Positions 10,126 to 14,280 of a DNA stretch of 36,743 nucleotides are shown piece by piece (the first letter of the stretch is position 1; each line of letters starts with the position of its first letter). The notes under the pieces are model-generated. The model made no database searches and had not been told where the DNA came from. It saw only the letters and a list, made by a program, of their open reading frames with translations. Origin of the DNA: Rhodospirillales bacterium (GTDB taxonomy: Bacteria > Pseudomonadota > Alphaproteobacteria > Rhodospirillales > Magnetovibrionaceae); NCBI GenBank assembly GCA_024653965.1, contig JANLGW010000009.1, positions 1 to 36,743 of the forward strand, given 5' to 3'. A program made the translations under genes and the position numbers.

Positions 10126-10854
10126 TTATTCCACGCCTTTGTCCACGATGGTAAACGTGCCCTCGCCATTGACCACACGAGAAAATGCACCAGGATTGTG
10201 CAGCGAAAACACCAAAATCGGCAAGTCATTGTCACGCGCAAGCGCAATCGCCGAGGTGTCCATGACCCGCAAGTCGCACGCCAAAACGTCTTGATAACTT
10301 AGGCGATTATACCGTTTTGCAGTGGGGTCTTTTTTCGGATCGGCGGAATAAACACCGTCCACCTGGGTTCCCTTCAACAACGCATCGCAGCGCATTTCGC
10401 TGGCGCGCAACGCGGCGGCGGTGTCGGTGGTAAAAAACGGATTGCCCGTACCGGCGGCGAAGATCACCACCCGGTTCTTTTCCAAATGCCGCTCCGCCCG
10501 ACGGCGGATAAACGGTTCGCACACGGTATCCATCGGTATGGCGGACTGCACCCGGGTCTCGACGCCCTTGATTTCCAAGGCGCTTTGCATGGCCAAGGCG
10601 TTCATCACGGTGGCCAACATGCCCATATAATCCGCGCTGGTGCGCTCAATCGTCGACGCTGCGGCGGATATACCCCTAAAGATATTTCCGCCCCCGATCA
10701 CCAGACAAATCTGCACGCCCATGTCATGAACGGTCTTGATCTCGTCGGCGATACGATTGACGGTTTCGGTACACAGCCCGAATTCCTTATCCCCCATCAG
10801 TCCCTCGCCCGACAATTTGAGCAAAACGCGCCGGTATCGTAGGGAAGTAGACAT
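10126..10854 (-). CDS. pyrH: Uridylate (UMP) kinase PyrH
   Basis: 242 residues, amino-acid kinase fold. Phosphorylates UMP to UDP in pyrimidine nucleotide synthesis. The N-terminal [15 protein letters not shown] holds the phosphate-binding lysine and glycines, followed by [10 protein letters not shown], and then the UMP-binding region [20 protein letters not shown]. The ATG at 10854 has AAGGAA nine bases upstream. It is first in the block that runs to lpxI. A hairpin terminator of the upstream luxI transcript and a possible promoter lie in front of it, so it is probably transcribed separately from the lux genes. Confidence 0.97.
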
Positions 10855-11054: not shown

Positions 11055-11693
11055 TTAAGCCGCTTCGCGGGCCTGATCGAGGTGTTCGCCCAACAGCTGC
11101 AAGACGTTGCTCACCTTGGTGCGATGCCGCACGCTTTGCAGCGTTTCCATCGTCACCGGCAGGCGCGCGGCTTGCACCTCGATGCCGTCCTCGCGCCACA
11201 CCGGGCCCAATTCAACAGGCGGCCAGCCGTTGCGCGCGAACACGGCACGCCAAATGCCGACCGGCATGACGCCAATGATGTCGTCAATGCCATGCGCCGC
11301 AGCGTATTCCATATAACCGCACACCAACTCCTTGACGATGGCGTTGCGTTGGGCGGCGGGCAAACTGTGATCGACGCCGAATCGCGTGCCTTCCCACACC
11401 CGCTCCGATTGCGGCATGTCGATTTTGGTGATTTTATCCGGCCAAATTTCTTTAAGCATGTAGTTCACGCAAGTCGGCGCTAGACGCGCGATGCCACGCG
11501 CCACGCCGTTTTCATCGCGCCACACAAAATATTGCGTGGCCGGAGTGTCGAACTGGTCGTATTCCATCCCTTTCCAGCTCGGCACCTGATAGTCCACCCG
11601 TTCGATGAACACCTGATGACGCAGGCGAAACTGCGACGCCAAGGCATCTCCGTACAGATGAGCGGTAGTGACATTGAAACAATCGATGGACAT
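11055..11693 (-). CDS. LuxI-family acyl-homoserine-lactone synthase
   Basis: 212 residues from the ATG at 11693, which has GAAGGGG nine bases upstream. The frame stays open to a TTG at 11756, but that lies next to the lux box and lacks support. The protein carries the LuxI invariant residues at the standard positions: R25, F29, W40, D46, D49, R70, E101 and R104 (blocks LRHQVFIERVDY, EYDQFDTP, GIARLAPT, WEGTRFGVD). LuxI enzymes join S-adenosylmethionine to an acyl group from ACP or CoA to give a diffusible homoserine-lactone signal. The acyl group cannot be read from sequence. It lies downstream of the luxR gene on the same strand, with a lux box ending 64 bp before its start, so it is likely autoinduced. 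Confidence 0.95.
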   Translation of the reverse strand: MSIDCFNVTTAHLYGDALASQFRLRHQVFIERVDYQVPSWKGMEYDQFDTPATQYFVWRDENGVARGIARLAPTCVNYMLKEIWPDKITKIDMPQSERVWEGTRFGVDHSLPAAQRNAIVKELVCGYMEYAAAHGIDDIIGVMPVGIWRAVFARNGWPPVELGPVWREDGIEVQAARLPVTMETLQSVRHRTKVSNVLQLLGEHLDQAREAA

Positions 11694-11756: not shown

Positions 11757-11776
11757 ACCTACGCACCAACGTAGGA
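11757..11776 (-). promoter_or_regulatory. lux box upstream of luxI
   Basis: On the minus strand TCCTACGTTGGTGCGTAGGT: perfect 6-bp arms CCTACG / CGTAGG around a six-base spacer. It fits the general LuxR-site form NNCT(N12)AGNN. It ends 64 bp before the luxI start and lies between luxR and luxI, as expected for LuxR-dependent activation of luxI. Confidence 0.85.
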
Positions 11777-11802
11777 ATACGCCTTTAAGATGAAATAGTT
11801 AG

Positions 11803-12519
11803 CTATAGAACAATCAAGCCGGCGTGCAGCGCCTTGACGACGGCGGTGACGCGGGTATCGGCCTCAAGCTTGCGCAGGATATTGCGCATGTGAAAATCCA
11901 CGCCGTGTTCGCTGATGGCAAGGATTTCGCCGATGGCCCAATTGCTTTTGCCCACCGCGCACCATTTCAAGACCTCCCGTTCCCGCGCCGTGAGCGAGGC
12001 GCCGCGAACGTTGCGTTCACGGTCATGCAGCGCCGAATACAGCACATGAAACTGGGTCGAAAGCACCTGAATTTCTTTAACAAACCGGCTCACATCACGG
12101 TTGGCGACGCTGGACGCCATGCCCACCCCGTAAACCTCGCCCATGGGACCATGAAACGCCAACGCTAGGCCGTCGTTCAGCCCCGCCTCGTGGCCTTGGT
12201 TCATAAGCTTGCTTTGCGCAGGTGTTAGATCGCGAAACCGCATCATATCATCCCAAGTAAAAGCCGCACGCGCCCCAATGGCATGCTGGCACACGGGATC
12301 CAGGCGCACGTAATCATGCGCCATGTAATAATTGATCCAGTCCTTAGGATAACAATGCGAAATGCCGGGAACGTTGATTTCTTCGTCGGACGTATTGCGC
12401 AGCGCGCTATAGAGAACCCGGTCCACGCCGTATTCGTCGAGCGCGCCCAAATAACATGAAAACAACCGCTCCGGGTCGTCCAATTTAAGAGATTCATCGA
12501 TGAAATTCGCCAGTGACAT
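11803..12519 (-). CDS. LuxR-family autoinducer-binding transcriptional regulator
   Basis: 238 residues from the ATG at 12519, which has GGGGGA five bases upstream. The open frame reaches 12615, but the likely promoter at 12618-12645 would leave no leader for that start. The N-terminal autoinducer domain (about 1-165) keeps all six signal-pocket residues of LuxR/TraR: W61, Y65, D74, P75, W89 and G117, offset by +4 from TraR. The C-terminal LuxR helix-turn-helix (about 174-235) reads LTAREREVLKWCAVGKSNWA with E180, L184 and G190. It should bind the lactone made by the neighbouring LuxI and act on the two lux boxes found here. It is cognate by position, 109 bp upstream of luxI. Confidence 0.95.
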   Translation of the reverse strand: MSLANFIDESLKLDDPERLFSCYLGALDEYGVDRVLYSALRNTSDEEINVPGISHCYPKDWINYYMAHDYVRLDPVCQHAIGARAAFTWDDMMRFRDLTPAQSKLMNQGHEAGLNDGLALAFHGPMGEVYGVGMASSVANRDVSRFVKEIQVLSTQFHVLYSALHDRERNVRGASLTAREREVLKWCAVGKSNWAIGEILAISEHGVDFHMRNILRKLEADTRVTAVVKALHAGLIVL

Positions 12520-12617
12520 GGCGTTCCCCCGTCCCAATCCCTGCCCATCAGCCAAGGCAAGTGGCCCGATCCCCCAAACACACTCGACACGGAAAGTCCG
12601 TATCGGCCACAGCATTA

Positions 12618-12645
12618 ATCATACTCGTTTACTCATGGCTGACAA
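12618..12645 (-). promoter_or_regulatory. Sigma-70-type promoter of luxR
   Basis: On the minus strand TTGTCA (12645-12640), 16-base spacer, TATGAT (12623-12618); both hexamers match the consensus at five of six positions. The predicted start near 12611 gives a leader of about 90 bases to the ATG at 12519, which argues against the longer LuxR reading frame. The rest of the 326-bp gap 12520-12845 holds the AT-rich stretch 12655-12712, the 9-bp repeats, the second lux box and the leader of the orphan gene. Confidence 0.6.
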
Positions 12646-12742
12646 GTACAACGTGTTTAGAGTCCATAAAAATACATCAACCAATTGATTTTTTTATGAA
12701 ATTCGTACCTTAACGCGCCGTTGCCTTAGGGGACAGCTCGCC

Positions 12743-12769
12743 CGCCCTTCACGCCCTTCACGCCCTACG
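12743..12769 (+). repeat. Three 9-bp direct repeats running into the second lux box
   Basis: CGCCCTTCA, CGCCCTTCA and CGCCCTACG follow each other without gap. The third copy differs at its end and forms the left arm of the lux box at 12763-12782. Confidence 0.6.
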
Positions 12770-12782
12770 GGTGTGCGTAGCT
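12763..12782 (+). promoter_or_regulatory. Second lux box, upstream of the orphan gene
   Basis: CCCTACGGGTGTGCGTAGCT: arms CTACG / CGTAG around six bases, again of the form NNCT(N12)AGNN. Read in the direction of transcription it matches the luxI box at 15 of 20 positions. It ends 64 bp before the ATG at 12846, exactly the same distance as the luxI box has from luxI. A possible -10 (TCCTAT) lies at 12805-12810. Confidence 0.75.
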
Positions 12783-12845
12783 GCCCGAGCATTGGCGCTT
12801 GTGCTCCTATGGGTATGCGCCAGTGCAATGATAGGAGCCATCCCC

Positions 12846-13304
12846 ATGAAGAAAAAGCCCGCCACCAGACCGATTGATCGCATGTCGGATGCCGGCCTTG
12901 ATGCGGTACTCGAATACATGTCCGATGAGGTAGAAGCCGCTGAAAGCAAAGAAGATTTAATGTACGTCCTGGCTCTGGCGCGCGAACTGATCAATCCCAA
13001 TTCCATGCAAAACGCGGTGGTCGGTCTCAACAACATCCGCGCCGATGTCGATCGCCACGCCATCGCCAACGCTAAATCTGAATCGACTGGGTCGAAGCAG
13101 GCTCGGTCGAAACGGGCCGGGCCGATGCTGGCCGGATCAACGCAAGAATGCACGGTTCAGCTGGATGTGCCGCAAATTCTCAGTTCAACGTTCCAACAGC
13201 TGTCCGAACGCATGCGCACGCTGCAAAATGACGATCCCGACACCTTTGCCAACGCTACCAGCGCGTTAACATGGCTAGCTAACGGAACGATCCGCACCAG
13301 CTGA
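12846..13304 (+). CDS. Unknown protein, probable LuxR target, divergent from luxR
   Basis: 152 residues; I do not recognise the family. The start is the ATG at 12846, with AGGAG eight bases upstream. The frame is open to a GTG at 12771, but that codon falls inside the lux box. The protein starts MKKKPATRPIDRMSDAGLDA, has no signal peptide or membrane segment, and looks cytoplasmic. An acidic helical part (about 13-50, VLEYMSDEVEAAESKEDLMYVLALARELI) is followed by a basic, low-complexity link at about 82-96. That link is made of five-residue repeats (GSKQA, RSKRA, GPMLA) from 15-bp DNA repeats. A second helical part follows (LDVPQILSSTFQQLSERMRT). It is one of only two plus-strand genes, divergent from luxR, preceded by its own lux box and ended by a strong terminator. 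Confidence 0.75.
   Translation: MKKKPATRPIDRMSDAGLDAVLEYMSDEVEAAESKEDLMYVLALARELINPNSMQNAVVGLNNIRADVDRHAIANAKSESTGSKQARSKRAGPMLAGSTQECTVQLDVPQILSSTFQQLSERMRTLQNDDPDTFANATSALTWLANGTIRTS
13090..13134 (+). repeat. Three imperfect 15-bp tandem repeats inside the orphan gene
   Basis: Units GGTCGAAGCAGGCTC, GGTCGAAACGGGCCG and GGCCGATGCTGGCCG, in frame (15 = 5 codons), encode a basic five-residue repeat linker. Copy number could vary without a frameshift. Confidence 0.6.
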
Positions 13305-13383: not shown

Positions 13384-14280
13384 TTACACGCCGGCGGCGG
13401 CAGCCACTTCGGCGGCAAAGTCTTCCGATTTCTTTTCAATGCCTTCACCCAAACCGAAGCGCACAAATGCGGTAATTTGTGTGCCCGCAGCTTCGGCGGC
13501 CTTAGAAACCTTGCTTTCGCCGTCGATGACGAAGATTTGTTCCAACAGGCAAACTTCGCCATAGAACTTAGAAATGCGGCCCACGATCATCTTGGCGATG
13601 ATTTCTTCCGGTTTGCCCGATTCACGGGCCTGTTCGGTCAAAATTTGCTTTTCGCGTTCCACAATGGCCGGATCTAAGTCTTCGCGCGACAAGCTGGCCG
13701 GGTTGGTCGCCGCGACGTGCATCGCAACCTGTTTGCCGAAGCCCTGAACGTCACCGCCCTTGCCCGCGACCAACACGCCGATTTTGCCCAGTCCGTCAGC
13801 AACCGCGCCGTGAACGTAGGCGGCCACTTCGCCGCCATCAGCCGTAACCACCTGTACGCGGCGAATATTCATGTTTTCGCCGATGGTGGAAATCATGTGC
13901 GTCAGTTCTTCCGCCACGGTGCGGCCCGAGCCCGGGAAGTCCATGGTTTTAAGCGCTTCAATGTCGCCATTGGATTGCAAAGCCAGTTTGGCCACGGTGG
14001 ACACAAAACCCTGAAACTGCACGTTGCGAGCGACGAAATCGGTTTCGGAGTTGACTTCAACCACGGCGCCTTTGTTGCCCTCGACCGTAACGCCCACCAA
14101 ACCTTCGGCGGCAATGCGCCCGGATTTCTTGGCGGCGGCGGCAAGCCCCTTGGTGCGCAGCCAATCGACCGCGGCATCCATGTCGCCATCGGTTTCGGCC
14201 AACGCCTTTTTGCAGTCCATCATGCCCGCGCCAGACTTTTCGCGCAGGTCTTTCACCAGAGCGGCAGTGATTGCAGCCAT
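13384..14280 (-). CDS. tsf: Elongation factor Ts
   Basis: 298 residues. Guanine nucleotide exchange factor for EF-Tu. The N-terminal UBA-like domain has [16 protein letters not shown]; the core carries [10 protein letters not shown], the EF-Tu-contacting signature, at about 78-87. A second half repeats the fold ([20 protein letters not shown]). The ATG at 14280 has AGAGAGG upstream. It lies 51 bp after rpsB and most likely shares its transcript, ending at the bidirectional terminator. In many bacteria pyrH follows tsf directly; here the lux cassette lies between. Confidence 0.97.

Follow-up and report, generated by a model that had tools for sequence, protein, structure and literature searches.

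The window, a 36,743-nt stretch of DNA from a Rhodospirillales bacterium, contains a luxI gene and a luxR gene on one strand and an orphan gene on the other, with one palindrome of closely similar sequence in front of luxI and another in front of the orphan gene. The best explanation is that both palindromes are operators of the LuxR protein (LuxR1) and that the orphan gene is activated by LuxR1 and encodes an accessory protein, which may be a feedback modulator, and the sequence evidence presented below makes this probable. The features concerned are listed in Table 1.

Table 1. Features of the lux island and its borders in the window.
Feature	Coordinates	Strand	Basis or remarks
amino-acid-kinase family gene, edge of the lux-island slot	10126..10854	-	PF00696; synteny
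luxI-type acyl-homoserine-lactone (AHL) synthase gene, 212 aa	11055..11693	-	PF00765, E 1.3e-24
predicted luxI lux box, CCTACGTTGGTGCGTAGG	11758..11775	-	18-bp core with perfectly palindromic 6-bp arms; 64 nt to the luxI ATG
luxR-type AHL receptor gene (LuxR1), 238 aa	11803..12519	-	PF03472, E 5.5e-24; PF00196, E 1e-19
predicted orphan lux box, CCTACGGGTGTGCGTAGC	12764..12781	+	64 nt to the orphan ATG; also upstream of the divergent luxR, by 244 nt
orphan gene, 152 aa	12846..13304	+	relatives in five genomes of genus g4, Magnetovibrio
tsf (elongation factor Ts), opposite border of the lux-island slot	13384..14280	-	PF00889; synteny

Judged by their sequences, LuxI and LuxR1 are ordinary members of their families. 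LuxI passes the curated PF00765 cut-off (87.2 bits versus 24) and aligns with solved AHL synthases, the best being 3p2f (E 1.5e-17). LuxR1 has both the Autoind_bind and the GerE domain, as a LuxR-type AHL receptor requires, and its best match among solved structures is LasR (6mwz, E 1.4e-25). Residues W61, Y65, D74, P75, W89 and G117, which we take from TraR and LasR to be positions of the AHL pocket, are invariant in seven aligned LuxR1-type proteins, as is the SEHGV stretch of the helix-turn-helix (HTH). LuxR1 is the single PF03472 (Autoind_bind) match in its own genome, and there is likewise a single LuxI match. Orthologues of LuxR1 (52-66% identity) are present in 4 of the 17 other genomes of the family (G007, G013, G011 and G015). 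Including the window's own genome, LuxR1 is thus found in 5 of 18 family genomes, three of which have the cognate luxI, and in the other 13 the best LuxR1 match is ∼30% identical or confined to the HTH.

A lux box is an imperfect palindrome of 18-20 bp with the consensus CT-N12-AG, and both sites in the window are palindromes of this kind in front of a quorum-sensing gene. Their cores have the form CCTACG-N6-CGTAGG at luxI and CCTACG-N6-CGTAGC at the orphan gene. In the 20-bp frame of the preliminary description, the luxI site occupies positions 11757-11776 (minus-strand reading TCCTACGTTGGTGCGTAGGT) and the orphan site positions 12763-12782 (plus-strand reading CCCTACGGGTGTGCGTAGCT), and direct comparison bears out that the two have 15 of 20 bases in common. 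The start codons are also where that description placed them, at 11693 (luxI, minus strand) and 12846 (orphan, plus strand), and the distance from box to ATG is equal for both genes, with 63 bases between them in the 20-bp frame and 64 with the 18-bp core. The similarity had been regarded as hard to explain by chance, which holds for the placement of the sites in the lux locus, but not for the match itself: a pair of 20-mers with at least 15 matches arose in 59 of 2000 trials in which both 150-nt upstream regions were subjected to first-order shuffling (p ∼0.03), so the pairwise match alone is weak evidence. A scan of the window with CCTACGN6CGTAGS allowing up to two mismatches gave four matches versus a shuffle mean of 3.17, and 35 of 100 shuffles reached four; all four matches have no or one mismatch and represent the two sites, each read on both strands. 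A sigma-70-like promoter was detected at neither box, and the scan for promoters and terminators yielded no more than shuffled sequence does.

In the window's own genome (2,990,654 bases in 153 contigs), exact matches to CCTACGN6CGTAGS occur at two sites, the luxI box and the orphan box, and the relaxed pattern CTAYGN6CGTAG matches the same two places only in the whole 2.99 Mb. Scatter of the motif over the genome, which the preliminary description had named as evidence against its reading, was therefore not observed, both full-core sites being at the lux locus. The number of sites is unremarkable, as two were found where a first-order model predicts 0.4 and base composition 3.4, and the same is seen with reversed control patterns: CCTACGN6CGTAGN gave 2 and 1 matches versus 1 and 2 for its control, and CTAYGN6CGTAG gave 2 and 2 versus 12 and 15. 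The count of boxes was dropped as evidence on these grounds, and since it is not above expectation or control, only placement and conservation support the case. The probability that a site of such density falls within the 326-nt luxR-orphan interval is ∼5e-5 to 4e-4. Six further sites differ from CCTACGN6CGTAGS by one mismatch, and each lies inside a mechanically called open reading frame (ORF) of at least 260 aa. Because only two full-core sites were found in the genome, the direct regulon of LuxR1 may be very small.

The boxes recur in related genomes. All five genomes with LuxR1 have a box before an orphan copy (intact in G007, G013 and G011, degenerate in G015, ACTATGGAGTTCCGTAGT), and all three with a matching luxI have a box before that gene too, G007 and G013 being the two besides the window's own. 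Beyond these, the luxI box was found in G025, G052 and G117 and, with altered outer bases, in G150. These last four, which belong to four other families, emerged from a scan of 35 further LuxI loci as those whose box in front of luxI has the ten inner arm bases complete; wide flanks were examined for 40 of the LuxI matches. In G025 and G052 the LuxR1-type system includes a luxI box and is without an orphan gene. Across 11 genomes of the window's family, CCTACGN6CGTAGN identifies eight distinct sites in four genomes, seven of them at luxI or orphan promoters and the eighth in G007 contig 67, and it is absent from the six genomes without LuxR1 (G001, G002, G004, G005, G006 and G009); total counts are 6 forward and 6 reverse versus 13 and 16 for the reversed control. 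A search of five genomes with CTAYGN6CGTAG gave 10 distinct sites, 8 of which belong to luxI or orphan promoters, and the totals are 10 and 8 versus 83 and 88 for the control. Mean pairwise identity of the arms is 0.88 among five orphan promoters and 1.00 among six luxI promoters, values that are biased upward because the promoters compared were selected by their box, versus 0.21-0.31 for the 40-nt flanks, and the flanks around the relatives' boxes are unalignable.

The distances from box to start codon behave differently in the two sets of promoters. For luxI they are 64 (window), 65, 63, 60, 65 and 66 nt, with 61 nt for the second box in G150. In G025, G052, G117 and G150 the start was assigned to the nearest ATG that follows the box, and the first G150 box was omitted because the ATG at a gap of 1 from it is a chance one. 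The spacing at luxI appears to be conserved. For the orphan gene in five genomes the distances are 64 (window), 111, 127, 73 and 65 nt. The significance attached earlier to an identical 64-bp geometry is not supported, as orphan spacing varies from 64 to 127 nt while luxI stays within 60-66 nt; exact equality is ruled out as evidence, and in the window it is most likely a coincidence. Neither is the sequence that follows the boxes held in common, mean identity being 0.31 within each promoter set. An ATATG motif ∼16 nt after the box is present in three of four relatives' orphan promoters and absent in the window. Variable orphan spacing and unshared sequence after the box reduce the proposed common promoter design to a common operator. 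The sequence evidence does support the claim that both boxes are operators of the adjacent LuxR, which is very likely, with the orphan gene as the second target and boxes before orphan copies in four Magnetovibrio genomes (one degenerate).

The orphan protein belongs to a family of ∼120-150 aa whose genes lie next to lux genes in all six genomes that have them and were found nowhere else. The protein from the window has no family in Pfam, NCBIfam or PHROGs. A sequence search recovered relatives in 6 of 199 genomes, the window's own and five of genus g4 in the same family, and a profile search of the order matched 7 of 317 genomes at E ≤0.05, one of these being a weak match of 27 residues. In 385 genomes drawn from the class, the profile matched the own genome and gave one weak match only. 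Weak single profile matches in G138 (E 0.047) and G571 (E 0.041) were treated as chance, as were those after luxI in genus g54 (L084, L085, L087 and L088; E 0.06-0.5). Two peptide patterns searched against GTDB contigs returned three loci, all from Magnetovibrio and including M. blakemorei MV-1. Eight orphan proteins have in common a C-terminal block that reads approximately VPESLVSTFYDLSDKMNQLQxEDPETFANASNALHWLANN. The window protein carries in addition an insert of ∼25 residues (∼72-96; positions ∼13059-13133) in which S, K, R and A are abundant and which is missing in all seven relatives, and the protein occupies a long branch in a mostly unresolved tree. Pfam searches with the eight members gave scattered weak matches to six families, the best being TraF with E 0.0033, below its cut-off, and none is a DNA-binding domain by name. 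The M. blakemorei relative has one weak PHROG match (E 0.019). AlphaFold models, for which five of the eight proteins were used, are helical and of low confidence (mean pLDDT 57.2 and 61.6; pTM 0.27 and 0.31), and Foldseek returned nothing with an orphan model, the best match having E 3.5.

The neighbourhoods of the relatives vary around the lux genes. G007 and G013 have the layout of the window, with luxI and luxR on one strand, the orphan gene divergent, and boxes before luxI and the orphan gene. G011 keeps LuxR1, box and orphan gene, and the only LuxI found in it is distant (28% identity) and encoded in a separate luxR2-luxI2-orphan run. In G015, one strand carries in order luxR2, luxI2, orphan, luxR1, the degenerate box and a second orphan gene, and the only LuxI found is again distant (36% identity). 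G009 has luxR2, luxI2 and orphan only. The extra orphan copies in G009, G011 and G015 lie directly after another luxI and are without the LuxR1 box. The second LuxR-LuxI system of G009 (L065) has a different palindrome, CTTACGGGCAAACGTAAG, before luxI2. In five of the six orphan-containing genomes the lux island breaks the rpsB-tsf-pyrH-frr run between tsf and a pyrH-like gene, the amino-acid-kinase gene of the window being one that we take to be pyrH from the operon order; the contig of G013 stops shortly beyond the orphan gene and shows the pyrH side alone. In 8 of 12 genomes that lack the orphan gene, tsf and pyrH are adjacent (G005, G006, G008, G010, G012, G017, G025 and G052), which is presumed to be the ancestral state, and in G001, G002, G003 and G004 pyrH is outside the stretch examined, which is short in G004.

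We propose that LuxR1 together with the lactone made by LuxI would bind both boxes, activating luxI in autoinduction and the orphan gene divergently. The orphan protein would be the main output besides the signal, and it may in turn influence the circuit, the likeliest way being a modulation of LuxR activity in the manner of antiactivators. Binding by LuxR1, activation and the response to lactone are very probable. An action of the orphan protein back on the circuit, most likely via LuxR activity, is proposed more tentatively and falls somewhat short of an even chance. Retention of the orphan gene beside the quorum-sensing genes of the relatives suggests that it is part of the circuit, and its link to two different LuxR systems, together with the lack of known domains, favours a role inside it. 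A further reading, which we regard as doubtful, is that LuxR, the box and this undescribed small-protein family make up a conserved module that outlives the synthase, the orphan protein being induced by the lactone and linking two LuxR circuits as a brake or adaptor. In G011 and G015, both Magnetovibrio, LuxR1, box and orphan gene persist after the apparent loss of the cognate luxI, beside a second LuxR-LuxI system with its own orphan copy.

The orphan protein might also be an effector or second-tier regulator that carries the quorum signal outward and leaves LuxR alone, the boxes being read as before. The model would be GinA, an 89-aa protein that is described in PMC7889782 as controlled by quorum sensing, encoded downstream of ginI and controlling other genes. 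Orphan copies in G009, G011 and G015 likewise follow a luxI directly, and the small number of genomic LuxR sites would suit a relay. However, the Pfam matches of the orphan proteins are weak and include no DNA-binding domain by name, and linkage to lux genes in every genome with an orphan gene suits a component of the circuit at least equally. An outward role of this type is possible, being nearly as likely as feedback directed at LuxR.

Two other explanations concern the orphan box itself. It could serve autoregulation of the divergent luxR, with the orphan gene as a bystander, as the box lies within the interval that both genes share, 244 nt from the luxR start. It is, however, much nearer to the orphan gene in the window, and in G015, where luxR1 shares a strand with the orphan gene and lies upstream of it, a degenerate box is again present in front of the orphan gene. 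This order of luxR1, box and orphan on one strand indicates that the box belongs with the orphan gene; a box for luxR only was rejected on this ground, and the bystander reading is unlikely. A chance resemblance, with a non-functional orphan box, would accommodate the frequency at which shuffles reach 15 of 20 matches, the 0.4-3.4 sites expected per genome and the counts within those of the controls. It would not explain why both genomic sites are in the lux locus, given the probability calculated for the orphan interval, nor the boxes at the equivalent place in four relatives, and we consider it very improbable.

Additional candidate targets were identified in the relatives. In ten genomes with a related LuxI, CCTACGN6CGTAGN has nine distinct sites in four genomes (two in G025, four in G052, one in G117 and two in G150), four of which are the luxI boxes, and the totals of 8 and 7 versus 25 and 28 for the control represent no excess. 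A gene for a hemerythrin-domain protein (PF01814) has a box in G025 (76 nt) and in G052 (50 nt, measured to the ORF start, the first ATG at 37 nt being in another frame) at loci L136 and L141, and the G052 hemerythrin box equals the luxI box in 18 of 18 bases; a literature search found no paper that joins a lux box with hemerythrin. The other G150 site (L130) precedes, at a distance of 68 nt, a 58-aa reading frame that has no Pfam family, and the remaining two G052 sites are inside ORFs. These sites hint, and no more, that this LuxR clade may drive luxI and a few lineage-specific genes. A third full box in M. blakemorei (G007, contig 67, 49437-49454) precedes a 178-aa ORF without a Pfam or PHROG family, and an ORF near it matches phrog_9646 (unknown function); the region is possibly prophage-like, or the site is possibly a chance one.

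These results indicate a lux box recognisable in several families and predict a small direct LuxR regulon that is readily testable. They also draw attention to a lux-linked family of uncharacterised proteins that occurs in Magnetovibrio and in a related genus. If the orphan protein is a feedback protein, it would join the short list of accessory LuxR regulators that includes RsaM, RsaL and TraM, and if the module reading is true, luxI and the orphan gene would be the only strong targets in the genome of the window. None of the paper titles listed in literature searches, in one case 12 of 2,485, concerns quorum-sensing genes of Magnetovibrio, and in the available part of PMC5088516 the term 'quorum sensing' appears in a reference title only.

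The arrangement resembles classical LuxR/LuxI autoinduction in its luxR and luxI families and in the CT-N12-AG palindrome 64 nt before luxI, and differs from it in the arms, CCTACG/CGTAGG, and in that only two full-core sites were found in the genome. TraM-type antiactivators are small helical proteins whose gene is under a lux-type box and which bind and inhibit a LuxR-type partner. The orphan protein is similarly small and, in the low-confidence model, helical, and its gene likewise lies under a predicted lux-type box; it was rejected as a TraM by sequence, as none was present among the PDB profile matches up to E 5 or the Pfam matches up to E 1. RsaM (PF16245), according to PMC10710839, is a small regulator encoded beside luxI and luxR, in intergenic or divergent position, without a known DNA-binding motif, and the orphan protein is comparable in all these respects. 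RsaM has a five-stranded antiparallel beta sheet with two helices; the models of the orphan protein are helical and of low confidence. Assignment of the orphan protein to RsaM was rejected, since PF16245 is not among the six families matched by the eight members up to E 1. GinA of Komagataeibacter (Gluconacetobacter) intermedius, compared here by its description in PMC7889782, is like the orphan protein small, lineage-specific, lux-linked and controlled by quorum sensing, as is predicted for the orphan gene, but GinA has 89 aa and is encoded downstream of ginI, whereas the orphan gene is divergent from luxR and has a predicted box of its own.
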